Origin: Litorimonas cladophorae
GTDB lineage: Bacteria; Pseudomonadota; Alphaproteobacteria; Caulobacterales; Maricaulaceae
Length of the DNA stretch: 64,000 bases
Reading direction: 5' to 3'
Assembly: GCF_014652455.1 (NCBI RefSeq)
Contig: NZ_BMYV01000002.1
Span: 434,001-498,000, forward strand
The first letter of the stretch is position 1, and every line of letters starts with the position of its first letter. The notes beneath the pieces are model-generated. The model did not search any database. It was given only the letters and a program-made list of their open reading frames with translations, and was not told the DNA's origin. Below are positions 8,999 to 33,679 of this stretch, piece by piece. Made by a program: the position numbers and the translations under genes.

Positions 8999-9103
8999 GC
9001 CGTCTCTACATAGCGGCTTTCATTATAGCTGAAAAAAGCCGCAAAAACTTCTTGCAGGCTGCGACATTTTCCGCTTAAAGGCGCGCTCGCTCACAAGGCG
9101 TAC

Positions 9104-9180
9104 GCACTGGTAGCTCAGTTGGATAGAGTACTTGACTACGAATCAAGGGGTCGGGGGTTCGAATCCTCCCCAGTGCGCCA
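9104..9180 (+). tRNA. tRNA-Arg (anticodon ACG)
   Basis: 77-nt cloverleaf. The acceptor stem GCACTGG pairs with CCAGTGC, the D-arm holds AGCTCAGTTGGATAGAGT, the anticodon stem CTTGA/TCAAG frames loop CTACGAA (anticodon ACG, positions 34-36), and the T-arm contains GGTTCGAATCC. CCA is encoded. Decodes CGN arginine codons after A34-to-I editing. Confidence 0.97.
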
Positions 9181-9683
9181 TTTCTCTCATTCTTAAGACC
9201 GTTAAGTCGTTGGAAAGAGTCCGTTTTTTCAAGTTTTCCTGCAATCTCCCTAATTCGAAGGCCGATTTGGGAAGAGACTGTGGAGCATCGGATCATTTTT
9301 TCCGAGAAAACGAGGCTCCCCAAGTACTATGATCGGGACAATCCTTATTTCCTGCACTGATTAAAGCTCTTCATAGCTGAGGGATAAGCACCGATTTTAT
9401 AGCTTCCGTCATGCCTTTGAAAAAACGGATGCTAGAAGCGGGACCGGACTATGGAATGCGCGCTACCCTAAATCCTACAGTTGCAAGTGTGTCTAAGCAA
9501 ATTGATGTCTTTAAGGAGCAGTAGAGTTTCTCTGTAGCCCGCGACGATATCCTCTGCGTTTGCCGCTGTTTTTGCTGCCTGTTCAATTCCCGCAAGGACA
9601 AAGATCTGCCGTCATGTGACCGGAATGACTGGTCTAACTGAACCTTAATCAATCTGTGTCATCTTTTGTCAAAGGATCTTGCG
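9181..9683. other. Intergenic region between tRNA-Arg and the hybrid kinase gene
   Basis: About 500 nt with no gene I can support. No repeat of the tRNA 3' end is seen that would suggest an attachment site. Short open frames here have composition unlike protein. The stretch just before 9684 must hold the promoter of the kinase gene, but I recognise no element except the ribosome binding site AAAGGA at 9671-9676. Confidence 0.6.
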
Positions 9684-11726
9684 ATGATAGATGGTTTGTT
9701 ATTAGTTGCTTCAGCGGCATTGCCGTCTTTTCTACTGGGGTATGCTCTGCGGAAATTTACCCTGAAATGGGAAAAAAAGGCCGAGACGGCGAAACAGGAA
9801 TTGGCGCTCCAAGCAGAACAACTTTCCGCAACTGTGTCTGCATCTCTGGATGGTATTATTATTATCAACGCAGAAGGCCACGTTCTTGAGTTCAGTAAAT
9901 CCGCAGAACGCATTTTTGGTTATAAGAAGGAAGATATTTTTGGACGGAGCATGGCCGCCCTGATTGTTCCTGAACGATACCGGGACGCACACAATGCTGG
10001 CATGGCAAGGATGCGCGACACAGGGAAGGCAAATATTCTTGGACAGCGCATTGAGATTGAAGCCGTTCGCGCCAACGGTGAGGAGTTTATGTCGGAACTC
10101 GCGATTTCGCGTAGCCGCAGCTCATCTGGTGACATTTTCATCGCATATATCCGGGATATTTCTGAGGCGAAGGCCGCTGAGAAAGCTTTGCTTGATGCCA
10201 AAGAGGCGGCGGAACTCGCCAACAAAGCTAAGACGCAATTTATATCGGCCATGAGCCATGAAATTCGAACGCCGTTCAACGCGGTTCTCGGTATTCTCGA
10301 TATTCTTGGCGACACAGACCTTACTATTGATCAAAAGCAGCTCATACAGACGGCAGACCGAACATCTAAATCACTGCTGCGTATTATTAATGATGTACTG
10401 GATTACGCTAGAATTTCCTCTGGAACAGTGAAGGTCCGAGAAACGCCATTCTACGCCGCGGATGTTTTTGATGATGTCTATCGTTTGTTCGCAATGCAAG
10501 CCAAAGAACAAGCTATCGATCTGGTGGTCAAGACAGAGGGTGCAGCGAAAATCTATCTGTCAGGGGATGTGGGGCGGATACGTCAAATTCTGATGAATTT
10601 TGTCAGTAATGCAATTAAGCATACCGTCAACGGAAAAGTGGAACTGATCGTCGATACAATTCAAACAGGTCCTGAAAAATGGAACTTAACGTGTCGCGTA
10701 AAGGACACGGGTGTAGGCATTAAAGCTGACAAATTAGACCGGCTTTTCGAAGAGTTTTACATGGTCGATGATGTCGATACGCGGGCGTCCGAAGGCACTG
10801 GCTTGGGTCTGACCATCTGTAAAGTTCTTATAACCATGATGAACGGCGAGATTGGCGTTGAGAGTGACGTTGGTCGAGGATCCAATTTTTGGATTAAAAT
10901 TCCATTGGCAGAGGCTTTGGCGCCCGTTGCCTCTGAGGTCGAAGACGTCACCTTGGCGGATATTTCTGGAAAAGAAATTTTACTGGCAGAAGATAACGTA
11001 ACAAACCGTATGGTTGTCACCCGCATTCTCAAAAAACATGGGGCAAGAATTGTTGAGGCAGTTAACGGGGTCGAAGCTCTATCCATTCTTAACGTGCAAG
11101 CGTTTGATTTGCTTTTGACAGATATTTTCATGCCTGAAATGGGTGGAAAGGAGCTTGTGCGATTGCTGCGAAATGGCGACTCTGCAAACGCGAAAATCCC
11201 GGTGATAGCTTTGACGGCTATGGGCGATATGCATGAGGCGGAAGAGTTGAAATCTTATGGTGTTGATCAGGTCGTATTGAAGCCATTTAATACGAGAGAC
11301 TTGATAAATGCTGTGGGGGAACAGTGTAAGAGGCATCAGAACAAACAATCTTTGTTAAAGTCTGATGTGTCGAAGGTCCCTGCAATAAAGTTATCGGGTG
11401 GATTATTGGACGGATTAGACCCTGAAGATTTAGTCGAAATTAGAGGACAATTCAAAACTGATCTGACAGATGTTACGGCATCATTGCGTAGCGCAATCGC
11501 GTCGCAAGATTATGAAGGCGCAAAGTTTGCCAGTCACACTTTAAAGGGACTCGCTGGATTATACGGACTTGCTGAGCTGTCAGAACATGCCGCATTAACA
11601 AATTCTCATTGCTTTCCTGATAGGCTCGAGGAGATGGTGAAGCATGGATCGAGAGCTATAAAAATAGCCGAGATATCTTTGCTCAATTTAGACGACCTCT
11701 TTGGCATAAATGAGGAGGCGGCATAG
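9684..11726 (+). CDS. Hybrid sensor histidine kinase (TM-PAS-HisKA-HATPase-REC-Hpt)
   Basis: 680-residue kinase, counted from the ATG at 9684, which has AAAGGA 7 nt upstream; an in-frame TTG at 9666 is less likely. One N-terminal membrane helix (LLLVASAALPSFLLGYAL) and a short coiled coil lead to a PAS domain (about 50-160), a HisKA phosphoacceptor (AMSHEIRTPFNAVLGI, His192), an ATPase domain with N box NFVSNAIKH and G boxes DTGVGIK and GTGLGL, a receiver (phosphoacceptor Asp about 480 in LLLTDIFMP) and a C-terminal Hpt (SHTLKGLAGLYG, His about 618). It can run a complete four-step phosphorelay ending at Hpt. The sigma-54 response regulator starts 8 nt after its stop and is its obvious target. 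The layout resembles RscS/SypF-type kinases that control polysaccharide genes. Confidence 0.92.
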   Translation: MIDGLLLVASAALPSFLLGYALRKFTLKWEKKAETAKQELALQAEQLSATVSASLDGIIIINAEGHVLEFSKSAERIFGYKKEDIFGRSMAALIVPERYRDAHNAGMARMRDTGKANILGQRIEIEAVRANGEEFMSELAISRSRSSSGDIFIAYIRDISEAKAAEKALLDAKEAAELANKAKTQFISAMSHEIRTPFNAVLGILDILGDTDLTIDQKQLIQTADRTSKSLLRIINDVLDYARISSGTVKVRETPFYAADVFDDVYRLFAMQAKEQAIDLVVKTEGAAKIYLSGDVGRIRQILMNFVSNAIKHTVNGKVELIVDTIQTGPEKWNLTCRVKDTGVGIKADKLDRLFEEFYMVDDVDTRASEGTGLGLTICKVLITMMNGEIGVESDVGRGSNFWIKIPLAEALAPVASEVEDVTLADISGKEILLAEDNVTNRMVVTRILKKHGARIVEAVNGVEALSILNVQAFDLLLTDIFMPEMGGKELVRLLRNGDSANAKIPVIALTAMGDMHEAEELKSYGVDQVVLKPFNTRDLINAVGEQCKRHQNKQSLLKSDVSKVPAIKLSGGLLDGLDPEDLVEIRGQFKTDLTDVTASLRSAIASQDYEGAKFASHTLKGLAGLYGLAELSEHAALTNSHCFPDRLEEMVKHGSRAIKIAEISLLNLDDLFGINEEAA

Positions 11727-11734
11727 GTGATGAG

Positions 11735-13189
11735 ATGGTCGGAGCAAACACAACACCTGAGGTGTTGATCGTAGAAGATACGTTATCCATGGCGTTAATG
11801 TATCAACAGCATTTAAAAAAATCGGGCATTAAATCTGAGATTTGTCAATCTGGTGAACTGGCTTTGACGGAGCTCCGAAAAGGGAAAGTTGATACGGTCC
11901 TTCTTGATCTTCAACTCCCCGATATGAATGGGCTCGATATCATCCAAGAGATGGATGGAACAAATCACAACATTACCTTTATCGTGATTACCGCCAATGG
12001 GTCTATAAATACGGCCGTCGATGCTATGCGTGCTGGCGCATATGATTTTTTGATAAAACCATTTCCGACTGAGAAGCTTCTCACGACGGTTAGAAATGCA
12101 CTCGAACGGGAGAAGCTCACAACAACGGTTCAGGTTTTAAAGACCAGTCTAAAAACCAATCAAGTTCCGGGATTTTTGGGTGAATCCCCTCCTATGCTCG
12201 CCGTTTATAAAATGATTGAAAATGTCGCGAATTCTAACGCGGCGGTCTTTATCACTGGCGAATCCGGAACAGGTAAAGAGGTTACGGCGCAAGCAATCCA
12301 CAAAGTAAGTCACCGTCGTGACGCCCCTTTCATCGCATTAAATTGTGCGGCATTGCCCGAAAATTTGATCGAGTCAGAAATTTTTGGTCACGTCAAAGGT
12401 GCTTTCACAGGAGCGCATGAAGCGAGAAAAGGAGCGGCGAGCCAAGCCAATGGCGGCACGCTGTTCCTGGACGAAATTTGCGAGATGGATATCAATCTCC
12501 AAGCCAAGCTTTTACGCTTTTTGCAGACCGGCCAAGTTAAACGCGTTGGTAGCGATTGGTCCGAAGACGTGGATGTCCGTATTGTTTGTGCAACCAATAG
12601 AAATCCGATGACGGAAGTTGCGGCGAAACGTTTTCGCGAGGATTTGTTCTATCGCCTGGACGTGCTCTCAATTGAATTGCCTCCCCTATCTCATCGGGGG
12701 AAAGACGTAATTTTATTGGCCGAAAGTTTCTTGAAAACATATGCGGCGGAAGAGGGAAAGCGGTTCCTATCGATCTCACCTGAAGCCCAAGAGTTGATGC
12801 TTGACTATCATTGGCCTGGGAATATTCGCGAGCTTCAAAATATGGTTCGAAAAGCGGCTGTCGTCTATGACGGTGTCGAATTGGAACCCCATATGTTTTC
12901 ATTGAAAACGGTTCGTTCAAATGCTCGAAATGATGAGTATAAACTCATTGGCGTTGCGGGTGAAACATCTGCCTACACACCTCAACAATCGCTAAAAACG
13001 ACGGTCACGGTTGATATCCTACAGCCTATGACGACGATTGAACAAACTATCATAGAGGCAGTGATTACATCCTGTAATGGAAGCATTCCGAAAGCCTCAC
13101 AAATCCTACAGCTAAGCCCCTCAACCATATACAGGAAGAGAGAGACTTGGATTAGAGAGGATTTAGAGCAGCAATCTAAAGCGGGTTAA
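11735..13189 (+). CDS. Sigma-54-dependent response regulator, LuxO/SypG-like
   Basis: 484-residue NtrC-class activator. Receiver domain with VEDT acidic pocket and phosphoacceptor Asp58 (TVLLDLQLPDMNG); AAA+ domain with Walker A GESGTGKE, the sigma-54-contacting GAFTGA loop, Walker B GGTLFLDEI and the arginine-finger region FREDLFYRLDVL; C-terminal Fis-type helix-turn-helix ending SPSTIYRKRETW, the form typical of LuxO and SypG. It should activate sigma-54 RNA polymerase when phosphorylated by the adjacent hybrid kinase. The ATG at 11735 has AGGTGA 5 nt upstream. LuxO-box-like dyads and sigma-54-like promoters lie upstream of the polysaccharide operons nearby, its inferred targets. Converges with and overlaps the SGNH-like gene by 4 nt. 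Confidence 0.93.
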   Translation: MVGANTTPEVLIVEDTLSMALMYQQHLKKSGIKSEICQSGELALTELRKGKVDTVLLDLQLPDMNGLDIIQEMDGTNHNITFIVITANGSINTAVDAMRAGAYDFLIKPFPTEKLLTTVRNALEREKLTTTVQVLKTSLKTNQVPGFLGESPPMLAVYKMIENVANSNAAVFITGESGTGKEVTAQAIHKVSHRRDAPFIALNCAALPENLIESEIFGHVKGAFTGAHEARKGAASQANGGTLFLDEICEMDINLQAKLLRFLQTGQVKRVGSDWSEDVDVRIVCATNRNPMTEVAAKRFREDLFYRLDVLSIELPPLSHRGKDVILLAESFLKTYAAEEGKRFLSISPEAQELMLDYHWPGNIRELQNMVRKAAVVYDGVELEPHMFSLKTVRSNARNDEYKLIGVAGETSAYTPQQSLKTTVTVDILQPMTTIEQTIIEAVITSCNGSIPKASQILQLSPSTIYRKRETWIREDLEQQSKAG

Positions 13190-15285
13190 GCCGCTACTAA
13201 TTCTACCGACTTCAGAAAATATGTAAGTGTGCGGTCGTCCGTTGAAAGGCCTAGATCTTTCGGGCTTCGCAGCTTTGGAACGGATAGCTTGATAGTCACC
13301 TCGAGCTCTCCTGCCGCCTTATAGGTGTTGAAGCGAATGGACGTGATGCCGTCATCTGAAATTTCAGCGGCGAACACCCTGTCTCCATCGATTGTTACAT
13401 TTATGGAATCTGGTGTTTCTGAAAAGAAGTCTCCCGTCAATTTAAGTAGATAGCTAGTAGGCAAGCCCGTCTCTATGGTCTCTGGCATTGTTATGCTGAA
13501 GTTTGCTTCTTCACTCCGCATCCAACGGCCTTCAGCTTCCTGTGCCCACCATCCATTACCATATCTCAGCTCAGTCTGCTTAACAGATAGAACTGGCGTC
13601 ACGAGTGAACATGTATTCAGGGTAGGTACGACGTCAAATGTCGCTCGCTTTGCGACCACGTTTGATTCGAGTGTTTCTACAGCTTGGAGAGGGGACGCCT
13701 CTTGGCGGACTGGTTCATCCATAATTGGCATTTCCACAGCATGCGTTAACGCCATAGTTTGCAAGTGGAGTGTCATCGAACGCGCATCTCGACTTTCCCC
13801 AAGATCCTTTGGACTCTTTGGATCACCCGCTTCTGGTAGATCAATAAAGATGGAGAGTGCTTCGCCTTTGGGTAAGCCGGTCACAGGGACCGAAAGGGAA
13901 ACACTCTCCCCGAACAAACCAGAACTCACCAAATTCCCATTTACGGAAATGTTGACCTGTTCCGGGCGTCCGGATTTCGTCATGCCTTGAATTTTCAAGA
14001 CAGTATTTGAAGGTAAGTTTTCTGGAAGCGTTACGCGGAACATGGCGCGATTATCTCGCATCCAGCGACCATAAGGTTCGAATGCCCACCAACCTGCCGT
14101 AAAATCAATTTGATCGCGTTGTTCCGCATTATCAAATGACACAGATTTTCCAAATTCAAGAGGGGTTTGGTTTAATTGACTGGCTTCCGCGAGTTCTAGT
14201 TCAAGCAAACGATGGCGTGCAAAATGAGTTATGTTCAGCGGTTCGCCTGGGGCGCCGTATCCTTGCGCCCTCAGAAATTCTATCATCTGCCGAGTGTGAA
14301 CATCTGTGGCTGCCGTGATAATATGATATGGTGAGTCATCTTGATAAGCTTGTCCGTAAAGACTTTGGCCAGGTGTGCCGAGAAATTCAAAACCCGCCCC
14401 ATTGACTGCCGCTTCAATCTCAGCACGAAAGCCTTCAACATATGCGGGATCTGTGAGGCAGCCTTCGCCCGCTAAAACGGGCCAAGCGAAATGTATATCA
14501 ACTCCGCGGGCTTTCAGCTTTTGGAGCCGCCCCAGAGCTGGCTTGATGTTTTTCCCAACAGTTAGAGCTTGTCTGGTTGGGGCCTTACCTAAGATATAAT
14601 CATCACAGCTTTGCTCTGCGACGCCTGCTCCTGGCCCGGTTGAATTTGGACGCGATTGATGTCCGCTTGGTTGAGTTAAAGCCGAAACGAAAAGGTCTCG
14701 AGCTGGGGACTCAGTTGGTTCGTTGGTGGTTGTCTGCCGATCTGCGAGTTTTGAAATAACGGTCGCTGGCGGAAGGCTCAGCGCGCGCTTTAGACGCTTA
14801 TCTAGAGGCATAGATTGGTAATAATCTCGGTTACTGCCGAACAGCGTATCGACGTAATTATCGGTCAGTTTTTCCCTGTGATAGAAGGTCCACTCCAATG
14901 GCAGAACAACCACATCGCCCGGGCGGGTGTAGGTTTCTAGGCGTGTCAGCTTATCTTCCAATGCGTATCCGCCATTATCAGCAATATTGATCGCTGTGCG
15001 TCCGAGGGCTTCGCCAACGGCGTCAGTGTCGATTGCGTGATGGGAGTTAGATCCAGACTCGAAAATGATCCGAGGTCCAGGAATCTCTTTTAAAAGAAAC
15101 CACTTATAAGTTGCGGGAACGGCTGATCGTTCAACCAGACGGTCAACTGTCAGTGCGTAAGCGCCGAGGCAGAACAAAGAGGTGCCGACCATGCCAGCGA
15201 CAAATGTACTGACTGTCTTAATCAGTTTTCTCGCTGCCAGATTTTTCACGGTGACGGACGATGTATTATTGGTTGGAAAAGTCAT
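13186..15285 (-). CDS. SGNH/AlgX-like acyltransferase partner with two C-terminal beta-sandwich repeats
   Basis: 699 residues: an N-terminal membrane anchor (about 22-45), an SGNH-hydrolase-like domain (about 65-345) with FESGSNSHH (75-83) as candidate nucleophile region and TDVH (327-330) as candidate Asp-His, then two homologous C-terminal modules. Module 1 (398-515) and module 2 (578-697) each begin with GWWAxExxGRWMR and end with SPKDLGxSxDxRxxT, an internal duplication that looks like a carbohydrate-binding sandwich. Directly follows an MBOAT gene (20 nt gap), so it probably transfers acetyl groups passed across the membrane by the MBOAT protein onto a polysaccharide in the periplasm. 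The family assignment rests on context and weak motifs rather than on a full canonical GDSL block. Confidence 0.7.
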   Translation of the reverse strand: MTFPTNNTSSVTVKNLAARKLIKTVSTFVAGMVGTSLFCLGAYALTVDRLVERSAVPATYKWFLLKEIPGPRIIFESGSNSHHAIDTDAVGEALGRTAINIADNGGYALEDKLTRLETYTRPGDVVVLPLEWTFYHREKLTDNYVDTLFGSNRDYYQSMPLDKRLKRALSLPPATVISKLADRQTTTNEPTESPARDLFVSALTQPSGHQSRPNSTGPGAGVAEQSCDDYILGKAPTRQALTVGKNIKPALGRLQKLKARGVDIHFAWPVLAGEGCLTDPAYVEGFRAEIEAAVNGAGFEFLGTPGQSLYGQAYQDDSPYHIITAATDVHTRQMIEFLRAQGYGAPGEPLNITHFARHRLLELELAEASQLNQTPLEFGKSVSFDNAEQRDQIDFTAGWWAFEPYGRWMRDNRAMFRVTLPENLPSNTVLKIQGMTKSGRPEQVNISVNGNLVSSGLFGESVSLSVPVTGLPKGEALSIFIDLPEAGDPKSPKDLGESRDARSMTLHLQTMALTHAVEMPIMDEPVRQEASPLQAVETLESNVVAKRATFDVVPTLNTCSLVTPVLSVKQTELRYGNGWWAQEAEGRWMRSEEANFSITMPETIETGLPTSYLLKLTGDFFSETPDSINVTIDGDRVFAAEISDDGITSIRFNTYKAAGELEVTIKLSVPKLRSPKDLGLSTDDRTLTYFLKSVELVAA

Positions 15286-15305
15286 GAAGATGTCCAGAAC
15301 TCGTG

Positions 15306-16775
15306 CTAAAAGTTGAAGTATAGGAAAGGGGATTGGGTCAGGCTTAAAGACGCCAAGAAAGCGGCGGATGCGGCGACCCCTGACGTAATTCCTAACGCAC
15401 CAATGAGCGCCGAAGATCGTTTCAGTAAATCTTTCTCGAACAACTCTGATATTTCTTTGGTGTTAGGCAAGATAAATGCGGATATCGCAGCAAGCGTTCC
15501 CCAGAGGATTGTCTGCAGAGGTGCAGGCATATGAACCGCTCCCTCTGCCACTGCTCCGAACATACTTAGCGTCATCGAAATTGCGCCAGACGTCGTTGTT
15601 GCGCGGAAGAAGACCCAAGCGACAACTGCGGCGAAGAAGGTGATGGCCCAAGAACTGATCCGAATGGCTTTAGCTGTCTCAACAATCTCCAGTACTCCGA
15701 AGAACTTAGCGATGGCGCGAACGGCTTGGTTTATAATCAGATAGAGGCCATGTAGCGCTCCCCAGATCAGGAAGTTCCAGTGCGCCCCATGCCACAACCC
15801 GCCAAGAACCATGGTTGCAAAATTGTTGATGTATTGACGAACCTTCCCGTGACGGTTTCCGCCAAGAGGGATGTAAAGATAATCGCGTAACCAACGGCTT
15901 AGTGTCATGTGCCAACGGCGCCAAAATTCAGACATGTTTTCAGATTTGTAGGGTGAGTTGAAATTCCATGGCAGGCGGATCGCGAATAAAAGGCCTAGTC
16001 CAATGGCCATGTCGGAATAGCCCGAAAAATCAAAATAGATTTGAAATGTGTAGGCAAGAGCGCCGCCCCATGCCGTGACGCTGGTGACCACCGCGCCGCT
16101 ATCTACGGATGTAAATACTTGGTTGGCATAGGGGGCTATGGAGTCTGCAATCGCCAGTTTTTTGAAAAGACCTAGCGCAAAGAGACATAGGCCTTCGCAA
16201 AACATGATAGCGCGCGCACTTGGGGTGATGATTTTCCGGAACTGCGGCATCATCTCGGCATGATGGACAATGGGGCCAGCAATTAACTGAGGAAAGAACG
16301 TTACAAATAATGCGTACTCAAGTGGATTATGCGAAACGGGGTCCATCTTTCCAGCGTGACTGTCGCAGAGATATGAAATCTGCTGGAAGGTGAAAAACGA
16401 GATCGCAAGCGGTAGAAGCAATTTCGGATCAGGCAGGCCCAAGTCAAACAATGCATTAAAGTTCACAGTCAGGAACCCCAGGTATTTGTAGACGCCCAAC
16501 AGCAGTAGGTTGGCTACGATACCCGCAACTAAAATTCGTTTCGATTTCGACGTACCAGGCTGTACTAAGATGTGTTTCGCCAAGACGTAGTTTACACCCA
16601 TCGAACCGACTAAAAGTATCAAATATTCAGATTTGAACCAGCTATAAAAAACGAGGCTGGCACCAATCAAAAGGATCTGGCTGTGCCACCGCGTTTTGGA
16701 AAACAGAGTTGCGAAGAAGCCTAAAAGGACCAATGGCAAAAATTTCGTTAGAAATACGGGATCAGTGAAGAGCAT
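15306..16775 (-). CDS. MBOAT-family O-acyltransferase (AlgI/DltB-like)
   Basis: 489-residue polytopic inner-membrane protein of the MBOAT family. The family signature region is complete: YSDMAIGLGLLFAIRLPWNFNSPYKSENMSEFWRRWHMTLSRWLRDYLYIPLG, followed by the catalytic-histidine segment GGLWHGAHWNFLIWGALHG. AlgI-like proteins take acetyl groups from a cytoplasmic donor and pass them outward for polysaccharide O-acetylation. Lies in the operon TolC-like lipoprotein, MBOAT, SGNH-like, with gaps of 17 and 20 nt. The first residues (MLFTDPVFLTKFLPLVL) match the usual start of this family. Confidence 0.94.
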   Translation of the reverse strand: MLFTDPVFLTKFLPLVLLGFFATLFSKTRWHSQILLIGASLVFYSWFKSEYLILLVGSMGVNYVLAKHILVQPGTSKSKRILVAGIVANLLLLGVYKYLGFLTVNFNALFDLGLPDPKLLLPLAISFFTFQQISYLCDSHAGKMDPVSHNPLEYALFVTFFPQLIAGPIVHHAEMMPQFRKIITPSARAIMFCEGLCLFALGLFKKLAIADSIAPYANQVFTSVDSGAVVTSVTAWGGALAYTFQIYFDFSGYSDMAIGLGLLFAIRLPWNFNSPYKSENMSEFWRRWHMTLSRWLRDYLYIPLGGNRHGKVRQYINNFATMVLGGLWHGAHWNFLIWGALHGLYLIINQAVRAIAKFFGVLEIVETAKAIRISSWAITFFAAVVAWVFFRATTTSGAISMTLSMFGAVAEGAVHMPAPLQTILWGTLAAISAFILPNTKEISELFEKDLLKRSSALIGALGITSGVAASAAFLASLSLTQSPFLYFNF

Positions 16776-16792
16776 CTTATATATCCGATGAC

Positions 16793-18277
16793 CTAAAGTG
16801 CTTTTGCCGCGGGAACGCTGGCTTGTAATTGCGAAGGTGTTTGGCAGGCTGGTACGATTCCGATGCTTTGTTCCAGACGTGCTTTGGCCGTATGTAATTC
16901 AGCGCGGGCCATTTGTTCACGAATGAATGATAGCTCCCGCATAAGCTCTTCTTTCACCAAATAGGTCTCTGGCTTATTGCCAGACTGCACGTCACGGATC
17001 AGGTCGTCCGTGATCTCCCCTTGGACAGAAAGCGCCTTCCACGCGAGTGTGAGGTCGTAGTCTAACTTATGCATCTGTTCGCGCGCGATCATGACCTGAG
17101 CCATGACAGCGCTGGCGAGAATTTCTGTTTGTCTTTGTTGTGCGGCGACGGCGATTTTACCGTTTCGTTTGGTTTCGCCAATTTGACCTAAGCGCAGTAG
17201 GTCCCAGCTCAAGTTTAATCCGGCGGAGGCGAAATCCTGGTTCAGGACAAAGCTGTTCGTATTGTGGTTCGCCCCGAGGAAAAACCGCATCGCGGGGAGG
17301 TGTCGCCAAAGGTCTTCCTGATTTTTCAATTTTGTTAAATCAGACTGATATAGCGCTTGCCGAATTTCCGGACGGTTTTGGTAAGCCTTTGCAATAAGGT
17401 CTAGCGCATTCTGTCCTCCAAGCTCACCCAAGTTGGAAGGCAGACGCTTAGATTTCAATTCGAAATTTGTCCCAGCAGGCACATTCATCAATCGGGCGAG
17501 TTCGGGTTTCGCTGAGAGCAGGGAACGGTATAGAGATTGATACCAGCGGTTGATGTCGATCAATTCACGCTGGAACATCAACTCTTGAAGTTTCGTGTCG
17601 GGGTTCTGATCCGCGCGCTGTTGTGATAGGTTTAGCGCGTAAGCGACGCGGCTTTTCAGCCAAGTCGACTTTTTTTCGGCCTGTTCAAACGCAACGGCCC
17701 GCCAATATGCGTTCTCAACGTCAACCATCATCTTATTGCATTGGTATTGGTTTTGCTCACCTTGGGCATAAGCGTTGATTGAACGGCGGTTAGCTTTGAA
17801 CCCGCTTAAGCCAATTTCTAGGAGGTCCCAACTTGTCGTAAGGGTTGACCTTGCAGCCGCTTGATCTTGCGCCGTGTAGAAGTCTTTCGGCATCGTGCTT
17901 GACGTATCGTCAACCTTTTTACCGATAGACGCACTCGCGTTATTCCGCCATGTGCCGTAGCTGCTGGCATAGGCCTGCGGGAGGAAATCTTTACCGCGCC
18001 TGCCCGCTTTCCGAACAGTCTCTAATAGTTGTGTTTGCGAGCGCGCATATTCGGAATTGTGAGCAAGTGTCCGTGACCGAACCGCGTCTATGCCAAGAGG
18101 TTCGTCTGTTTCCAACGGGACAGCTTTGGATCGCAATGTGCTATCCGTGAGGCTAGAAACATTAGAGGCGTCATATTCTACAGCTGTTGTGGAGCATCCT
18201 CCCATTGCCAAGGTGCCGATAAGCCCGAACCCCAACAGGGTCTGTTTAAGGCTCAATTTTTTCCATTCAATTGTCAT
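16793..18277 (-). CDS. TolC-family outer membrane lipoprotein
   Basis: 494 residues from the ATG at 18277, which has ACGGAG 7 nt upstream; an earlier in-frame ATG at 18325 would overlap the proposed promoter and spoil the signal peptide. A lipoprotein signal peptide (LLGFGLIGTLAMGGC) is followed by two long alpha-helical repeats with spaced Leu/Ala heptads (for example AYALNLSQQRADQNPD and ARAELHTAKARLEQSIG), the pattern of outer membrane efflux proteins. It would form a trimeric outer-membrane and periplasmic duct. No RND or MFP partner is adjacent; instead it heads the O-acetylation operon, so export of the polysaccharide or of an associated factor is inferred. Preceded by a sigma-54-like promoter and two LuxO-box-like dyads. 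Confidence 0.85.
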   Translation of the reverse strand: MTIEWKKLSLKQTLLGFGLIGTLAMGGCSTTAVEYDASNVSSLTDSTLRSKAVPLETDEPLGIDAVRSRTLAHNSEYARSQTQLLETVRKAGRRGKDFLPQAYASSYGTWRNNASASIGKKVDDTSSTMPKDFYTAQDQAAARSTLTTSWDLLEIGLSGFKANRRSINAYAQGEQNQYQCNKMMVDVENAYWRAVAFEQAEKKSTWLKSRVAYALNLSQQRADQNPDTKLQELMFQRELIDINRWYQSLYRSLLSAKPELARLMNVPAGTNFELKSKRLPSNLGELGGQNALDLIAKAYQNRPEIRQALYQSDLTKLKNQEDLWRHLPAMRFFLGANHNTNSFVLNQDFASAGLNLSWDLLRLGQIGETKRNGKIAVAAQQRQTEILASAVMAQVMIAREQMHKLDYDLTLAWKALSVQGEITDDLIRDVQSGNKPETYLVKEELMRELSFIREQMARAELHTAKARLEQSIGIVPACQTPSQLQASVPAAKAL

Positions 18278-18307
18278 GTGACGACTCCGTTTTACGGAAA
18301 AGTCATT

Positions 18308-18321
18308 GCAATCGACAGACC
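18308..18321 (-). promoter_or_regulatory. Candidate sigma-54 promoter of the TolC-MBOAT-SGNH operon
   Basis: On the minus strand GGTCTGTCGATTGC gives GG and GC with exactly 10 nt between, and TTGCA at the -12 element. The -24 element is degenerate (GGTCTG against GGCACG). The predicted start near 18296 leaves a leader of about 19 nt, the same as for the other minus-strand sigma-54 site at 24078. Confidence 0.5.
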
Positions 18322-18384
18322 ACATCGGGGTTTAACGAAAACAGCGGGTTAGGTAGTTAATGAACCCCAAATTTCGCAAATACT

Positions 18385-18397
18385 TAGCAATATGCAT
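18385..18397. promoter_or_regulatory. LuxO-box-like dyad (11/13 match)
   Basis: TAGCAATATGCAT differs at two positions from the Vibrio LuxO consensus TTGCAWWWTGCAA. Its centre is 21 bp, two helical turns, from the perfect site at 18406-18418, so two activator dimers could sit on one face. It lies about 75 bp upstream of the candidate sigma-54 promoter. Confidence 0.5.
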
Positions 18398-18405
18398 TTC
18401 GCGTT

Positions 18406-18418
18406 TTGCAATATGCAA
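18406..18418. promoter_or_regulatory. LuxO-box-like dyad (perfect consensus match)
   Basis: TTGCAATATGCAA fits TTGCAWWWTGCAA at all 13 positions and is an inverted repeat. Located about 90 bp upstream of the sigma-54-like promoter of the TolC-like gene, the usual distance for an NtrC-class enhancer, and in the same locus as a LuxO-like activator gene. Confidence 0.6.
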
Positions 18419-18453
18419 ATCAGTTGTTTTCTTTTCAAAAAACTGAAGTGGTA

Positions 18454-21400
18454 TTAATCCAATGGACGATAGAGCATCGCGTCATAGTCGATCATAACGC
18501 GCATGTCGTCATTTGCGAGCTTAGCCCCTGTTGGCCAAATTGAGTTTAAATTTATTGCGCTGCTCTCTCCGTTAATCTGCAAGCGGTCGGGAGACGAAAT
18601 ATGCGTCCTCATTTTTACGGATAGTGGAATCTGAATAACCCTAACTTCGCCCGGAATTAGGTTGTTTTGCAGATAGTAAGGTTCGACCCAGGTGAGGCGG
18701 CCCTTGGCGTCGACATATGAGAGTTTAAGCTGGAGAGTGCTTACAATCTCTGTACCTATATTACTCACTTTTAGTGTCAGCGCCTGACGGCCGTCCATTT
18801 CGGAGATGTTTATTTCGGAAAATGCGACTGACTTATAGTATGCAGGGGTGCAAACGGTCGTAGAAAGTGAGACGTCAATGTCAGATGGAAGACTGTCAAA
18901 TTCGGGCACGCTGAACTCATCAGGGTTATAAGCCGCATTAAATGGTTGGTCTTGAATTTTCAAATAGCCTTCAAAATCGACTCGAAAAGCTGAACTCTCT
19001 CCGGGGAGAAGTCTATGTGGGCCGATACGGCCTGCATGTTGTTTGAATTCAGCTTCTGAATCTGTGCTGACGGCTCGCGCTAACACTTTCGTACAAGCTG
19101 GAAATTCCGACAGGTTTTTTAGACGGCCAATCACGAATAGTCTACCGTCGTCCTCTATAACTTCGGTTGCCATGAGCTCAATTTCCGGCCGTGCTAGTCT
19201 TTGAACGGGGTCCATTGAGGTTGAATATTTTTGTCCAGTCAGGTCACGGAACTGTGGCGCGTTACTACTCGACGTCAGATTGGGGGTGTAGGTTTTGTCG
19301 GCGGGCTCATATTTGATTTGCCAAACTTTATTTGCGTTTTGGATTAACGTCATTTCGGTGATGACTGGCCGGATCCCGATTGATGTTAGGTATATTAGCT
19401 TTAATTTTATTCGAACCTGTCCATCATCCACGACTTCCATATTTAGGGGTTCTACAGATGTGAGCTTCCCAAAAGAGGGGACAAGGCCACCAGTGAGCTT
19501 TTGCATTTTTAGAAATTGTCCATAGTCCAAATCTGGATCGCTTGCGAGTAATGAAAAAGCCTGTTCCGTTTCACGGAAGTCTAAGTGTTGATAGAAACGC
19601 TCAACAACTGTTTCAGGCAGTAAAGGTTTACGTTGATTTTGTAGCGTAATGATTATGAGGATTGCAGCCATAGATGCAGCGACAAGAGGTAATACCCTCA
19701 CTAACCAAGTCATAGTTTTCGGAGGCGTCCAAGCCACTGGCAAAGGTGCAAGTTGGGTCGCGACACCAACTGTCAACGTCGGTTCAGGTTCAGGCACCTT
19801 GACTGTCATATATGGCGAAGGGGCTATTCTCAGAAATGGCCTTGATTCAGATGAGATCAGTTGCTGACGAAGGGCTAGACCGATCAGGGTGAGTAGGCCG
19901 AGGATCAAAGATCCAATCGGCAAAATGCCCCACATCAGTTTTTGGTAACGCGGCAAATCTCTACGCGGGCGCACTATAGGTAAAGGCGATATGTCTGGTT
20001 TTTCCCAAACCCGAATACCGTTATTGAGCCGAGTGACTGGGTTCCATCCCGTATAATGCAGCACAGGGTCATAGAACTCGTCATTTGAAAACACATATTT
20101 TAAATGAAACTTCTCGGCATTAGTCAGAAATTGATTGAGTGATGCTAAACCAGGCACGCCCATATATTTTGAATTTTCTAGCCGCTCGACTGAGTAGTTC
20201 ATCAAACTCGGCAGGCGTCTTGCAGAATGATAGTTGCCGTCGACTGACTCGGCGTTGATGAGGGCGCTGTGATAAGCAAATTGATCCCCAAAACCGAGGG
20301 TGAGATATCGCCAATCCGAGTGCCGGTCTTCATCCATGAATGTGACAATGGGTGCAGGATCAATGAAGTCAGGTTGCGTTGGTCTGAACGTCGGGAGAAG
20401 AGCTGTTCCAACGGCAAAGCCAACATAGGTAACAAGTGTCAGAACAAGAAAAGCGCGGCTTAGGAAAGATCCAAAAGCGCGATTGATTAATATCTTTCCC
20501 CGCCCTTCCCAGAGGCTTTGAACCGCCAATCCTGCAAAAGGTAGAATTAAGATAGACGCCCAAAAGGTAAACCTATCCAAGGTTAAAATCTCAAACGCTG
20601 GCCCAAGTAAGATACGTGGTAAAGGGGTTGTACCGCCCGTTCCTAAGAATAATGCGATCAAAACAGAAAGCCCCAATGGCCAAAGCGCTGTTCGGGCCGA
20701 TTTTAGAATGACGTAAGGAACCACGGTGATCAGCATGCCCCAAGGAATGACGAAGAACATTAATCCCAAGTTGGGTTTGGCAATAAAGTTTTCTCGGCTG
20801 CCATGTGGAATGCTGACTTGTGTAATCGGGTCAGTGATTGACCAGTGCCAATAGGGGAAAACAATTGTGATGATCAAAAACAGCATCCCCAACCCCATAA
20901 TAAAACCGCGTATTAAGGCTGGAGATATCCATTTTAGATATCCAAGCGTACTGGATGGTTTGTAGAGTTCACGTCGTTTCAGATTTGCCAAGAGTGCTGC
21001 TATGCCAATTGGAGCCACAAAGAAAACCGTACCAAATAAGGGCGTGACATGGTGAACCGAGGTTGTCGCTGCCGTGAGAAAAAGACCCAGTATAAAGTCT
21101 CTTTTCCGCCCATGCTCTATCCAGCTCGATATGTGAGGAATTGCGTTTAGGAACAGTGCGATTGAAAGGAGGGTGGGTAATTGCCCGAAGATGTGAAGTG
21201 TTTCCGAAATGCTAGTTGAGAAGGCGCAGAGCATCGCTGCGTAGGACGCCGCCTTATCATTTACCCACAGGCGGCTAAACCGGAACACGCCAATAATAAG
21301 AATGCCAATGGCCAAGAGTTGCAGCGCAATAAATGCGATGCGCATATCCATGAAACGCATCAAAATCCCTAAGGCTTGATGGCTTCCTGGCGGATACGCC

Positions 21401-21582
21401 GTCACGGTAAAGCCAGTGTACCACCTTGTTTCCCAGGGGTCGAACCACGATGTTAAATAGTGGTTCCCAAAAAACATATGGATATAGGAATCGTATGTCT
21501 GCCCATAGGTGAATGGTAAGAGCGCCCCATGAAACATGAGTGCCAGTAAGATCGCCAGATATGTCCACGACCTTGCCGTCAT
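18454..21582 (-). CDS. Large polytopic GT-C/PTPS-related membrane protein with periplasmic NTF2-like and beta-sandwich modules
   Basis: 1042 residues. The first ~570 residues are a polytopic membrane domain resembling the 6-pyruvoyl-tetrahydropterin-synthase-related membrane family and GT-C glycosyltransferases; the N-terminal loop has YDSYIHMFFGNHYL and TAYPPGSHQALG, where an acidic/His motif would sit. After a further membrane helix (about 630-650) come an NTF2-like domain (656-765) and two beta-sandwich modules of FxLYD-like pattern (808-920 and 921-990), each with a GRLKN/LKVSN turn and an LPGE or IPGE motif. It likely transfers sugar from a polyprenyl-phosphate donor, or assists polymer assembly, on the periplasmic side. 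Third gene of the GT2-STAS/flippase operon, with a 1-nt gap to the flippase stop. Confidence 0.7.
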   Translation of the reverse strand: MTARSWTYLAILLALMFHGALLPFTYGQTYDSYIHMFFGNHYLTSWFDPWETRWYTGFTVTAYPPGSHQALGILMRFMDMRIAFIALQLLAIGILIIGVFRFSRLWVNDKAASYAAMLCAFSTSISETLHIFGQLPTLLSIALFLNAIPHISSWIEHGRKRDFILGLFLTAATTSVHHVTPLFGTVFFVAPIGIAALLANLKRRELYKPSSTLGYLKWISPALIRGFIMGLGMLFLIITIVFPYWHWSITDPITQVSIPHGSRENFIAKPNLGLMFFVIPWGMLITVVPYVILKSARTALWPLGLSVLIALFLGTGGTTPLPRILLGPAFEILTLDRFTFWASILILPFAGLAVQSLWEGRGKILINRAFGSFLSRAFLVLTLVTYVGFAVGTALLPTFRPTQPDFIDPAPIVTFMDEDRHSDWRYLTLGFGDQFAYHSALINAESVDGNYHSARRLPSLMNYSVERLENSKYMGVPGLASLNQFLTNAEKFHLKYVFSNDEFYDPVLHYTGWNPVTRLNNGIRVWEKPDISPLPIVRPRRDLPRYQKLMWGILPIGSLILGLLTLIGLALRQQLISSESRPFLRIAPSPYMTVKVPEPEPTLTVGVATQLAPLPVAWTPPKTMTWLVRVLPLVAASMAAILIIITLQNQRKPLLPETVVERFYQHLDFRETEQAFSLLASDPDLDYGQFLKMQKLTGGLVPSFGKLTSVEPLNMEVVDDGQVRIKLKLIYLTSIGIRPVITEMTLIQNANKVWQIKYEPADKTYTPNLTSSSNAPQFRDLTGQKYSTSMDPVQRLARPEIELMATEVIEDDGRLFVIGRLKNLSEFPACTKVLARAVSTDSEAEFKQHAGRIGPHRLLPGESSAFRVDFEGYLKIQDQPFNAAYNPDEFSVPEFDSLPSDIDVSLSTTVCTPAYYKSVAFSEINISEMDGRQALTLKVSNIGTEIVSTLQLKLSYVDAKGRLTWVEPYYLQNNLIPGEVRVIQIPLSVKMRTHISSPDRLQINGESSAINLNSIWPTGAKLANDDMRVMIDYDAMLYRPLD

Positions 21583-21583
21583 T

Positions 21584-22873
21584 TTACGAAGCTAGTCTCT
21601 CTTTTTTCGATGGCACCAGAACAATTCCTATCAACGTTGCCGCACATGCAATTTGAATAAGCAACTTCAAGCTGAAGTAGCTGTGTAACCCGATGTCAGG
21701 AAAGAAGTGATTAACTGCCGAGAGTGAAATGAGTTGAATAGCGCCAAAGAATAACACGACGAGTGCGGCAAAACTCTTGCCTTTGGCAATTTGATAGATT
21801 GCGCACAGGTGGCTGCCGATAAAGACAGCACCTGTGAGAGCGCTTATCCAAACGATTGACGAGAGTGCCTGATACTCATCGCCTAACATGACGCGCACAA
21901 TCAGATCGGAATTAGGTAAAATAACGATCATTGCACCCACCGTGATCAGAGTGATTGCACCTAAAAGTGCCAGCAGTTCTCGGGGTGATGTCTGGTTCTC
22001 CTTTTGCTTGGCGACAATGGGTTGAAGGATCGTTGAGCAGGATAAGAAGGCGAAAAAGAAGACGCGTTGAATGAGAAGTAAGCCCGCTACGAGACCTGCA
22101 ATTTCAGGTGAAAAGCTAGCTTTTGCGATGAGTATGTCGCTGTCCAAAACCAAGACTTGAGCGAACTGCAAAATCAAATATGGCATAGCGACGATGCCCA
22201 ACGCCTTTGTCTGCGTGTCCAGGCTAGGTACCTCGCGGAAGGATAAAGATTGCAAGTCATCTTTTCGCGTCGAGAAGAAAAAACCTGCCAATATGGAAAG
22301 TCCGACGGCTCCAGCAATACCAGCTAAACCCAACCCCATTTTCCAGAGTAACAAACTACCAAAAAGTCGAATTATCCATTCAGCTTGGATGGAAAGAATG
22401 ATTTTTGGTAGGTCAATCAATCCTTGTGTAAGACCTCTATAAATTACCATGGGAAGGAAAAATGGAATTGCGAGAGCCAAGACACAAAGGGCCATCGGCG
22501 AAGAAAAATTCAATGATCCTGAAATGTAATTCGCCAAGGCGATGACAATGAACATGGCGGGAATCGAGAACTTTAAACTACGCCAGGATACAGCTTGTGC
22601 CTGTTGACGGCTTTGCTGAACTTTACCTTCCTTTGCTGTCAATTCGGAAAACGCAAACTGCAACGCGCCAAGGAATGACAATATGCCAAGCTTTAGCGTG
22701 AGAAGAAGTGTGAGATCTGCAAAGGCAGCAGGGCCCATAATGCGTGCGAAAACCATATTGAAAACAAGGTTTGCAGCGTTCGCGATATTCGCGGAAATGA
22801 ATAAAGCGGTGGCTGGTCCAATTAATGCGTTCGTGCGCAAAGCTCGGAGTGGTAATGTCAGAGATCGTGACAC
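21584..22873 (-). CDS. Polysaccharide flippase-like membrane protein (MOP/PST superfamily)
   Basis: 429 residues from the GTG at 22873, which follows GGAGG and sits 1 nt after the stop of the GT2 gene; a longer reading to 23083 would overlap that gene by over 200 nt with low-quality sequence. About 12 hydrophobic helices, beginning ALIGPATALFISANIANAANLVFNMVFARIMGPAAFADL, the typical Wzx/PelG-like opening (a GxxxFG/A-type first helix pair). Probably moves lipid-linked sugars or growing glycan across the inner membrane. Operon position between a GT2 and a GT-C-like gene supports this. Not clearly Wzx versus another MOP branch. Confidence 0.82.
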   Translation of the reverse strand: MSRSLTLPLRALRTNALIGPATALFISANIANAANLVFNMVFARIMGPAAFADLTLLLTLKLGILSFLGALQFAFSELTAKEGKVQQSRQQAQAVSWRSLKFSIPAMFIVIALANYISGSLNFSSPMALCVLALAIPFFLPMVIYRGLTQGLIDLPKIILSIQAEWIIRLFGSLLLWKMGLGLAGIAGAVGLSILAGFFFSTRKDDLQSLSFREVPSLDTQTKALGIVAMPYLILQFAQVLVLDSDILIAKASFSPEIAGLVAGLLLIQRVFFFAFLSCSTILQPIVAKQKENQTSPRELLALLGAITLITVGAMIVILPNSDLIVRVMLGDEYQALSSIVWISALTGAVFIGSHLCAIYQIAKGKSFAALVVLFFGAIQLISLSAVNHFFPDIGLHSYFSLKLLIQIACAATLIGIVLVPSKKERLAS

Positions 22874-22874
22874 C

Positions 22875-24047
22875 TTAAGCCTCCGACAACGAGAAACGGG
22901 AGTTGTTCGTAAAGTGGCTCGGCAAGCGGGTCCGAATTGTGCAGTTAAAAAGTGCAGTGATGGAGGAACGCCTCGCAGCAGATAAGATATCAGCATCATC
23001 TGGAAGATAAATCGAAACGTCTTTTCCACAAGCGAGGAGTCTTTCGCAGACTTCTGTAAGGGATGTAAAAACAGATGGCTCAAGTGTTTTCACATTGGAA
23101 AAATCCAATGTGATGAGACGCTTGTTTTCCGAGACTATCGCTTCCATCGCATGAATGCTCTGTGTGCTCAAAGTTTCTCCAGACCGCAAATGCTGGGTGA
23201 GCGAAGGTTGGGGCAACACGCGCCTATTTTGAAAACGTGCTCTGATTTTCCATTGGCTGAAAATCAGCGATGTCATTTTTAGACCGCCTTTGATGACATC
23301 ACTAAACTTGATGTTGGATCCGGGGATTTCGGTCCACTCCAAAACAGGGTATTCAAAGAAGTTTTTTCGTTCTCGTTTATTCGGATTTGAAATTCTTAGG
23401 AATAATTCAACATCGAAAAGCCAACCTGCAGTGAAAGGGGCGTCGAGGCAGTTGATAAGATGTTCAGTATTGCGGAACAATTTTGCTCCGCACTGCGTGT
23501 CTTTTAGAGCCAAACCAGTCGCCATACGACCCATCGATGCGCAAACCAGAGAAATCATCTTGCGGTGTATGTCTCTATAGACTCGGCGACCCAAGCCGCC
23601 AGCGCGCGACCCGAAAACGACATCTATATTGTCCAAGCGATCCGCTACCGAGATGAAATCATTTATCGCATTTAGCGGGGTTGCAAGGTCAGCGTCCAAA
23701 AATGCGATATATTTGTCGCCGCGTTTAGCCGCGAATTTTAGTCCGTGACGAACGGCTTCCGCTTTTCCAGCGTTGCGTGCCATGGTAAGAACGTCGACTT
23801 GATCGGGTAATGCGGCCATTGCACCGCAGAGCAAACTAATGGTCAAATCTCTTGAACCATCATCAACAAACACAAAAGAAATTTTTGGGTTTTTGCGAGC
23901 AAAATTTAGGAAGACCTCAAGATGCAGTCTGTTGGCTTCATTATAGCAAGGAATTATAATTGAGGTTCTATCGTGCTTCCAAATAGACGGCGTGAGTGTC
24001 TGCTGTTTTGGTGAAGTCTCAATAGATACAGTTTTTCGTTTGGTCAT
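22875..24047 (-). CDS. Family 2 glycosyltransferase fused to a C-terminal STAS-like domain
   Basis: 390 residues from the ATG at 24047, preceded by TTGGAGA; a longer reading to 24155 would run through the proposed promoter. The N-terminal GT-A domain resembles dolichyl-/polyprenyl-phosphate sugar transferases: SIIIPCYNEANRLH (29-42), FVFVDDGSRD, NAGKAEAVRHGLKFA, metal-binding DADLATP (118-124) and FGSRAGG (145-151). Residues about 290-375 look like a STAS/SpoIIAA fold (LITLDFSNVKTLEPSVFTSLTEVCERL), with Ser325 at the region where antisigma antagonists are phosphorylated. It probably loads a sugar onto polyprenyl phosphate or onto the glycan at the cytoplasmic face, with STAS as a regulatory or docking part. 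First gene of the flippase/GT-C operon. Confidence 0.85.
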   Translation of the reverse strand: MTKRKTVSIETSPKQQTLTPSIWKHDRTSIIIPCYNEANRLHLEVFLNFARKNPKISFVFVDDGSRDLTISLLCGAMAALPDQVDVLTMARNAGKAEAVRHGLKFAAKRGDKYIAFLDADLATPLNAINDFISVADRLDNIDVVFGSRAGGLGRRVYRDIHRKMISLVCASMGRMATGLALKDTQCGAKLFRNTEHLINCLDAPFTAGWLFDVELFLRISNPNKRERKNFFEYPVLEWTEIPGSNIKFSDVIKGGLKMTSLIFSQWKIRARFQNRRVLPQPSLTQHLRSGETLSTQSIHAMEAIVSENKRLITLDFSNVKTLEPSVFTSLTEVCERLLACGKDVSIYLPDDADILSAARRSSITALFNCTIRTRLPSHFTNNSRFSLSEA

Positions 24048-24077
24048 TTTTGTCTCCAATATTTTGGAGATAGCTAC

Positions 24078-24091
24078 GCAAATGCCGGGCC
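24078..24091 (-). promoter_or_regulatory. Candidate sigma-54 promoter of the GT2-STAS/flippase/GT-C operon
   Basis: Minus-strand GGCCCGGCATTTGC: GG and GC are exactly 10 nt apart, with GGC, CG and TTGC matching the -24/-12 consensus. The predicted start near 24066 leaves a leader of about 19 nt that contains the GGAGA ribosome site. Confidence 0.6.
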
Positions 24092-24142
24092 GCGATTTTG
24101 CCTGTGTTTTCGGGTATTTTCTTTGCAAATCAGAAAAGACAT

Positions 24143-24155
24143 TCGCATTTCGCAA
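24143..24155. promoter_or_regulatory. LuxO-box-like dyad between divergent sigma-54 promoters (11/13 match)
   Basis: TCGCATTTCGCAA differs from TTGCAWWWTGCAA at two positions, both T to C. It lies between the divergent minus and plus sigma-54-like promoters, about 50-65 bp from each. The intergenic region also shares exact 9-10-mers with the region upstream of the TolC-like gene: ATTTCGCAAA (24147, 18371), TTTTGCAAT (24162, 18404) and GCAAATCAG (24125, 18415). Confidence 0.45.
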
Positions 24156-24207
24156 AGATCATTTTGCAATCTTATTCAAATGACCCGCAAAATAGCGCGT
24201 TTTTCGC

Positions 24208-24221
24208 GGCATATGCATTGC
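24208..24221 (+). promoter_or_regulatory. Candidate sigma-54 promoter of the Ig-like/GH-like/GT4 operon
   Basis: GGCATATGCATTGC has GG and GC separated by 10 nt, GGCA at -24 and TTGCA at -12. Predicted start near 24233, leaving about 24 nt to the ATG at 24257. Confidence 0.6.
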
Positions 24222-24256
24222 AACCCTTCATAGGCAACCTCGCAAAGAAAAGACCT

Positions 24257-26448: not shown

Positions 26449-26473
26449 TTCAAAAATACCTCAGGAAACTCCT

Positions 26474-28320: not shown

Positions 28321-28400
28321 GTTTCTTCGGTATCGGACCGCCAACATAGCCGAGGAGGGATGAATCTTCTTAGCTCCTACGTCAGAATAAGAGGTTAGTG

Positions 28401-29531: not shown

Positions 29532-29554
29532 ACTTTCAGTCGAGGAAAAACATA

Positions 29555-33675: not shown

Positions 33676-33679
33676 ACAC

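Follow-up and report, generated by a model that had tools for sequence, protein, structure and literature searches.

Does the pair of genes at positions 9684–13189 of a 64,000 nt stretch of Litorimonas cladophorae DNA, encoding a hybrid sensor kinase and a sigma-54 activator, control the polysaccharide genes beside it? The whole stretch (GCF_014652455.1, NZ_BMYV01000002.1 positions 434,001–498,000; genome label G000) is termed the window here, and coordinates without a locus label refer to it. A first-pass annotation had proposed a LuxO/SypG-type pair adjoining a polysaccharide locus; it is right on the pair and probably right on its role. Direct sigma-54 control of the neighbouring cluster by this pair, with the logic of the SypF–SypG system of Vibrio fischeri and through predicted LuxO-type sites, is very probable. 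Since such sites lie before the neighbouring sugar-polymer genes, the pair is probably the on/off switch of a biofilm-like coat. The window was compared with 80 genomes (G000 included, the others being relatives), with 398 genomes of the order and, class-wide, with 385 genomes.

The kinase–activator pair and its family

The pair consists of the following genes.

9684–11726, + strand: hybrid sensor kinase with its own Hpt (PAS–HisKA–HATPase_c–REC–Hpt, by Pfam); its orthologue adjoins the activator in relatives
11735–13189, + strand: LuxO-family sigma-54 activator, a response regulator (Pfam, NCBIfam, solved-structure search and tree)

That the hybrid kinase carries its own Hpt was borne out by Pfam, which placed PAS_9 at residues 62–167, HisKA at 188–253, HATPase_c at 300–415, REC at 438–550 and Hpt at 591–647 (E 1.6e-7), numbered from a possible upstream TTG start at 9666. 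Judged by eye, the N-terminus resembles one membrane helix. The next gene was, as claimed, that of an NtrC-class activator with a LuxO-like C-terminus (SPSTIYRKRETW); it possesses REC (10–119), Sigma54_activat (148–314, 231 bits), AAA lid and HTH_8 (434–470) domains, GAFTGA at 222–227 and the helix-turn-helix residues SPSTIYRK, with D58 as the probable phosphoacceptor. The gene for sigma-54, rpoN, was found once in G000. Two LuxO-family activators, 89 % and ~70 % identical to that of the window, stand in tandem by one kinase in G008 (L024:12151–15428).

Among curated families the activator scored best with LuxO (NF041946, 550.1 bits), ahead of PrsR (388), NtrC (387) and AtoC (381), and it fell below the cut-offs of both NF041946 (800) and the PrsR family TIGR02915 (388.3 bits, cut-off 502.6). 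The closest solved structure was LuxO 5ep0 (404.8 bits; next protein 313.8). A quick maximum-likelihood tree was built from 105 of 107 possible sequences of enhancer-binding proteins (EBPs), leaving out L031 (a fragment) and L173. In this tree 31 rows formed a LuxO clade on a single branch (SH-aLRT 99), with the other 74 EBP rows outside it; 12 of the 31 were own-group rows, 11 carried the second-group label, four were other alphaproteobacterial rows and four gammaproteobacterial ones. The window activator and 11 rows from close relatives made up a subgroup of their own (97), and other genera of the order contributed a second group of 10 rows (100). Further alphaproteobacterial rows of the clade came from Rhizobiaceae-group, Rhodospirillales, Hwanghaeella and Bradyrhizobiaceae genomes, with G341, which belongs to the same order as the window, placing with the Bradyrhizobiaceae row outside the second group. 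The gammaproteobacterial rows were from Photobacterium, Vibrio, Ferrimonas and Pseudoalteromonas, and by eye the Photobacterium member is directly followed by a LuxU-like Hpt gene. L094 and L113 attached near the clade on long branches. The window's branch lay apart from L039, which looks SypG-like by its glycosyltransferase neighbour, in a tree without any named SypG. Another EBP of G000 (L001) grouped with Caulobacter, Parvularcula, Bradyrhizobium and Hyphomicrobiaceae rows (SH-aLRT 100), in agreement with the alphaproteobacterial lineage given at first pass.

Because the activator groups with Vibrionaceae LuxO yet scores below the NF041946 cut-off, it belongs to the LuxO family without being LuxO itself, and its separate subgroup within the 31-row branch makes it a family member on a branch of its own. 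An excerpt of PMC11407668 names 11 LuxO residues critical for DNA binding; by position count eight are identical in the activator (G449, I451, L458, S463, I465, Y466, R467 and K468) and the positions matching N410, V420 and L429 differ.

Predicted binding sites and target genes

The LuxO site is given as TTGCAWWWTGCAA in an excerpt of PMC10162802, with two copies upstream of qrr1. The following elements were located in the polysaccharide cluster.

18406–18418, − strand: perfect LuxO-type upstream activating site TTGCATATTGCAA (motif scan), kept in relatives
18385–18397, − strand: second LuxO-type site ATGCATATTGCTA, 21 bp from the first (motif scan, alignment)
18307–18322, − strand: sigma-54 −24/−12 element TGGTCT-N5-TTGCA ahead of the export gene; both TGGTCT and TTGCA are invariant in six of six aligned genomes
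24077–24092, − strand: sigma-54-like element CGGCCC-N5-TTGCG for the − strand operon (alignment, scan)
24123–24176, no strand assigned: three phased LuxO-like sites, at 24123–24135 and 24164–24176 (one conserved half each) and at 24143–24155
24143–24155, no strand assigned: LuxO-like site TCGCATTTCGCAA with two mismatches here and at most one in several relatives (alignment)
24207–24222, + strand: sigma-54-like element CGGCAT-N5-TTGCA for the + strand operon (alignment, scan)

The site at 18406–18418 was the sole perfect match to the LuxO motif in the 64 kb and lies within the 176-base gap before the exporter gene, where 29 bases separate the end of a GG-N10-GC element from the start codon. 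A six-genome alignment of this promoter revealed that the palindrome cores and TGGTCT/TTGCA were kept while the intervening sequence drifted. The sigma-54 element was also kept at the exporter promoter of G260 and G347, the palindromes of G347 having two mismatches. Within the divergent region (24048–24256) the six aligned genomes kept the three LuxO-like sites as well as a sigma-54-like element directed at each operon, and one site of this region was perfect in G260 and G347. Across nine orthologous clusters, sites with at most two mismatches numbered 44 in 3,453 bp of the two promoter regions and 86 in the remaining 137,546 bp, a difference in density of about 20-fold; the P value for site density is inflated by kinship and by overlapping sites.

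The tandem arrangement at the exporter was then searched for in 14 genomes picked by presence (eight holders) or absence (six non-holders, all congeners) of the activator. The spacing of the pattern was read from the first alignment and not predicted, so the exporter matches were not blind. The pattern preceded the exporter in seven of the eight activator-positive genomes and was absent from all six activator-negative congeners; in G032, the remaining holder, no exporter was found at that place. The other tandem match in G000 had not been looked for beforehand and lies on another contig, upstream of a gene for a protein of 119 amino acids (C1:1612612–1612968; L160:1613–1969), where the site pair and sigma-54 element stand at distances like those of the exporter promoter. 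Homologues of this gene were found in six of the 80 genomes, G000 included. The site pair and sigma-54 element preceded it at matching distances in G000, G008 and G043, the G008 copy adjoining that genome's own tandem match, and G005 had one full site and a sigma-54 element. Weaker homologues in G016 (two) and G013 had no LuxO-type core. The protein had no Pfam family match. Its gene is predicted to be a second target of the relay.

Could the adjacent activator be a bystander, with a different LuxO-motif protein reading the sites or the kinase working on another regulator? Kinase and regulator are paired by adjacency only, G008 has its two tandem activator copies, and G005 has the site-bearing small gene with no activator found. 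Other activator matches in G000 were, however, only 36–38 % identical, and the tandem sites upstream of the exporter track this activator among relatives. It is very unlikely that the adjacent activator is not the actor.

The clade and DNA motif shared with LuxO could also be read as a quorum-sensing circuit, whose activator would act mainly on Qrr-like small RNAs and affect polysaccharide indirectly. Such a circuit appears highly improbable. An Rfam scan of the window and of two second-target loci (L160 and L164) found no Qrr RNA there and no other RNA except a tRNA. The kinase carries its own Hpt, the second target is a conserved protein-coding gene and the sites lie directly at structural genes.

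Three further matches to the LuxO motif are recorded. One, with one mismatch, lies at 9052–9064, upstream of a tRNA-Arg gene. The two other perfect sites of G000, in L158 and L159, were taken as chance: that of L158 is single, ~50 bases upstream of an apparent single-strand-binding-protein start, with no sigma-54 element of score ≥5, and that of L159 is single and inside an open frame.

The genes that direct control by the pair would govern are as follows.

13186–15285, − strand: protein of 699 amino acids with a hydrophobic N-terminus and two GWWxxExxGRWMR-type repeats; no family match
15306–16775, − strand: MBOAT O-acyltransferase (PF03062, 130 bits)
16793–18277, − strand: OEP/TolC-type outer-membrane export protein (PF02321), the first gene past the predicted internal sigma-54 promoter
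18454–21582, − strand: multi-membrane protein of 1042 amino acids, GT-C-like by inference (PTPS_related below cut-off); the cluster marker
21584–22873, − strand: multi-membrane protein without a family match, possibly a flippase; its start is approximate, set by orthologue starts
22875–24047, − strand: GT2 glycosyltransferase (PF00535), first gene of the − strand operon
24257–24940, + strand: weakly Ig-like protein of 227 amino acids (Big_3_5 below cut-off), N-terminus signal-like
24937–26448, + strand: GH5-like protein of clan GH-A
~26474–27721, + strand: GT4-type glycosyltransferase (PF00534, 49 bits); start inferred from orthologues

The genes at 13186–24047 are convergent with the kinase–activator pair, and those at 24257–27721 are divergent from them. 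Family searches (MBOAT, OEP-type exporter, GT2, GT4, GH5-like) thus agreed with the earlier claim that polysaccharide genes stand beside the pair, and gene starts were corrected to 18277 (not 18325) for the exporter, 24047 for GT2, 24257 for the first + strand gene and ~26474 for GT4. The 699-residue protein, with both repeats in its second half, matched nothing in Pfam, NCBIfam or the sequences of the PDB and is a probable partner of the acyltransferase; its AlphaFold model (pLDDT, the model's own confidence score, 47.8) was too weak to use. In the GH5-like protein K-N-Q (323–325) was invariant in five orthologues and E409 was kept. GH5 enzymes usually carry N-E at that place, and the protein may be a binding protein or an altered hydrolase. 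In G007 (L026:16763–17800) the usual place showed no MBOAT match, an MBOAT of 44 % identity followed the GT4 gene, and the homologue of the 13186–15285 gene was only partial. Past the cluster, the window has Porin_O_P (phosphate porin) and pst–phoU genes at 28398–34405; the porin was found in four of nine genomes searched, and no porin, PstS or PstC match was found within the 11 kb read past the GT4 gene of G010 (L020).

Distribution of the pair in relatives, order and class

The structural marker (18454–21582) was present in nine of the 80 genomes and the full activator (≥59 % identity) in eight, all of which had the marker; this 59 % split between the window's own group and the second group was fixed after the scores had been seen. 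Across the 398 genomes of the order, 10 held the activator, 10 the marker and nine both (P 1.6e-16, ignoring kinship), so that co-occurrence of the pair with the same structural genes, which the first-pass annotation had proposed as a check, was near one-to-one. G385, the sole genome of the 398 with the activator and without the marker, has it adjoining a different cluster of porin, HlyD-like, GT2 and MBOAT-like genes, preceded by a perfect LuxO site. The whole cluster and the pair were also seen in G260 (L157), of another family, with an activator 75–76 % identical; so close a copy suggests block transfer.

tRNA genes were found upstream of the kinase in three carriers, in the same orientation.

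9104–9180 of the window (G000): tRNA-Arg (ACG), ending 503 bases upstream of the kinase
L022:6361–6447 (G016): tRNA-Leu (CAG), ending 718 bases upstream
L024:17704–17790 (G008): tRNA-Leu (GAG), ending 248 bases upstream

The block may be an island at tRNA genes. The other carriers had no tRNA in the stretches read (some only 0.6–1 kb upstream), a tRNA-Ser of G043 being ~7 kb away. The search for repeated tRNA ends gave nothing above 12 bases, with one 12-base match in G016, ~160 bases past the GT4 gene.

These observations bear on the possibility of neighbourhood without control, in which the pair answers an unrelated signal and came along as a passenger of a shared mobile or accessory segment. 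Patchy distribution (full activator in eight of 80 genomes plus a fragment in G001, marker in nine), the suggested transfer to G260, the island-like tRNA genes 248–718 bases upstream, albeit with no clear flanking repeat, and the LuxO-like activators elsewhere in the class, often without polysaccharide genes, would all fit it. Against it speaks the conservation of LuxO-type sites and sigma-54-like elements within the cluster, and co-transfer of one block is insufficient because other genera couple the pair to different structural genes. This explanation is regarded as improbable.

That coupling was traced through the order, where a LuxO-like activator was found in 32 of the 398 genomes at E 1e-110 or better; all 32 stretches were queried by homology and part of them also by Pfam. 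Polysaccharide genes of several kinds lay nearby at 30 of these loci. They stood beside all 10 close activators. Near 19 of the 22 distant ones (44–50 % identity) there was a sugar-transferase homologue (WecG and Bac_transf; partial in G168), found at only one of 72 other-EBP loci, and G108 had epimerase and GT2 genes near the pair. LuxO-type sites (≤1 mismatch) were present between the sugar-transferase gene and the kinase at 17 of the 19 loci, some overlapping the listed kinase start, and in G238 they lay upstream of the sugar-transferase gene instead. A site pair (≤3 mismatches in all) occurred at nine of 11 own-group, 19 of 22 second-group and one of 72 other-EBP loci; G+C was 0.59 in the second group, 0.59 in the control loci and 0.47 in the own group. 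L035, of the Rhizobiaceae group, had three sites and sigma-54-like elements both ways between manC–pmm and a PilZ gene, by a kinase–activator pair.

In the class-wide set a LuxO-like activator is present in 70 of 385 genomes, which makes the family common in Alphaproteobacteria. Twenty loci, the best-scoring places among the 70 positive genomes, were read with few queries, giving a lower bound: G622 and G553 matched polysaccharide queries (manC, pmm, PilZ, GT2) and G569 a sugar transferase partially. In G552 an Hpt kinase is convergent with the activator, homology queries found no polysaccharide genes within 20 kb, and the four neighbours checked by Pfam (Nramp, Bax1-I, FtsX and ABC) were not polysaccharide genes; G420, of the same family, seems to resemble it, by homology alone. 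Occurrence of the pair in relatives lacking such genes had been named at first pass as the finding that would count against the idea. Polysaccharide genes lie near 30 of the order's 32 loci; outside the order the link is weaker, and G552 and G420 seem to lack it. Given these and the few class-wide loci with polysaccharide genes, the coupling belongs to particular lineages, above all to this order. The class-wide activators at L235, L237 and L240 had no kinase or polysaccharide query match and LuxO-type sites near their own start, which suggests autoregulation.

Several observations weigh against direct control by the pair. Promoter control and site binding are themselves predictions from sequence. 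The divergent-promoter sites of G000 carry at least two mismatches, and scans of the whole window gave three one-mismatch LuxO matches (4.1 expected, no excess) and 35 sigma-54 consensus matches (36.4 expected, chance level); because of this the cis case rests on position and conservation. The 12 tandem sites in the 14 genomes compare with four for the reversed control pattern, and three of the 12 are unexplained (G007 C4, G008 C4, G043 C49). In G005 (78 % complete) the small gene and its promoter were found and the activator was not. G002 has the cluster on a contig that ends inside it, and no activator was found; in G001 a 76 % activator fragment lies at a contig end, peptidase and acetyltransferase genes follow downstream, and the cluster marker is lacking. 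The porin operon gap of G385 showed no sigma-54-like element scoring ≥3, and only four of 10 second-group gaps before the kinase had one. No polysaccharide genes were found nearby in G333, by homology queries only, or in G341, by homology queries and three Pfam scans.

Proposed mechanism and comparison with known systems

Under direct control by the pair, a signal would reach the membrane-anchored PAS kinase, and phosphate would pass from its histidine to its own receiver, its own Hpt and D58 of the activator. The phosphorylated activator would bind paired TTGCA-N3-TGCAA sites two DNA turns apart and remodel sigma-54 polymerase at three cluster promoters, of which the divergent pair would drive the GT2–flippase–GT-C and Ig–GH5–GT4 operons and the internal one exporter–MBOAT–13186. 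It would also drive the small unlinked gene, whose product may tune or report the switch. The output would be a surface or matrix polysaccharide that is made, acylated and exported. Domains, clade, sites, sigma-54-like elements, conservation, co-occurrence and rpoN were read from sequence; binding, activation, the nature of the polymer, the signal and, from adjacency and domains, the flow of phosphate from kinase to activator are what we infer.

With a confidence somewhat above even, the relay is portable and a common switch of polysaccharide loci in the order, the pair and its DNA code staying while structural genes are swapped (the MBOAT/GT-C/OEP cluster, WecG–sugar-transferase clusters, the GT2–HlyD–MBOAT cluster and the Rhizobiaceae-group GDP-mannose genes), and it also controls the small unlinked protein. 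LuxO is the master switch of Vibrio quorum sensing at low density; its relative SypG drives a single polysaccharide locus. Should relays of the LuxO family switch polysaccharide generally in an alphaproteobacterial order, the coat role may be as old as the quorum-sensing role, and one could test in which direction evolution went. With the conserved sites the regulon can be predicted from sequence, and one small unlinked target gene is already named as a candidate.

The activator resembles LuxO of Vibrionaceae (5ep0; NF041946) in domain order, clade, GAFTGA and the recognition helix S-x-I-Y-R-K, and in the motif TTGCA-N3-TGCAA, paired upstream of a sigma-54 promoter, here as predicted sites. 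It differs in scoring below the equivalog cut-off; its kinase has an Hpt, the next gene is 13186–15285 and not luxU, and it is predicted to act on polysaccharide operons and a small protein gene rather than on qrr RNAs.

The structural genes presumably differ from the syp set. In V. fischeri, SypF feeds SypG, the direct regulator of syp, according to an excerpt of PMC12369376. Here too the Hpt of a kinase would feed a LuxO-like EBP predicted to act directly on a polysaccharide locus. Unlike SypG, the activator is on its own branch of the clade, and the SypG motif TTCTCANNNTGMDWN gave 139 matches (≤2 mismatches; 162 expected), none exact and without excess. The earlier proposal of SypG-type control is thus supported for the circuit logic, by sites, clade, co-occurrence and the like coupling at different polysaccharide loci of the order, and probably does not hold for descent, since the sites match the LuxO motif rather than that of SypG.

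PrsK–PrsR, of PEP-CTERM/exosortase systems, is likewise a kinase and sigma-54 regulator near exopolysaccharide genes, with a conserved activator motif and −24/−12 element upstream of its targets (excerpt of PMC1569441). PrsR belongs to a different EBP family (TIGR02915, 388 of 502.6 bits), and its targets in that excerpt are PEP-CTERM genes. No report of a LuxO-family polysaccharide regulator in Alphaproteobacteria was found in the open-access literature, surveyed mostly at title level, in line with the first-pass view that such control is undescribed in this lineage. What is probably new, compared with all three systems, is SypF–SypG logic carried out by a separate LuxO-family branch via LuxO-type sites, with structural genes that vary by lineage.

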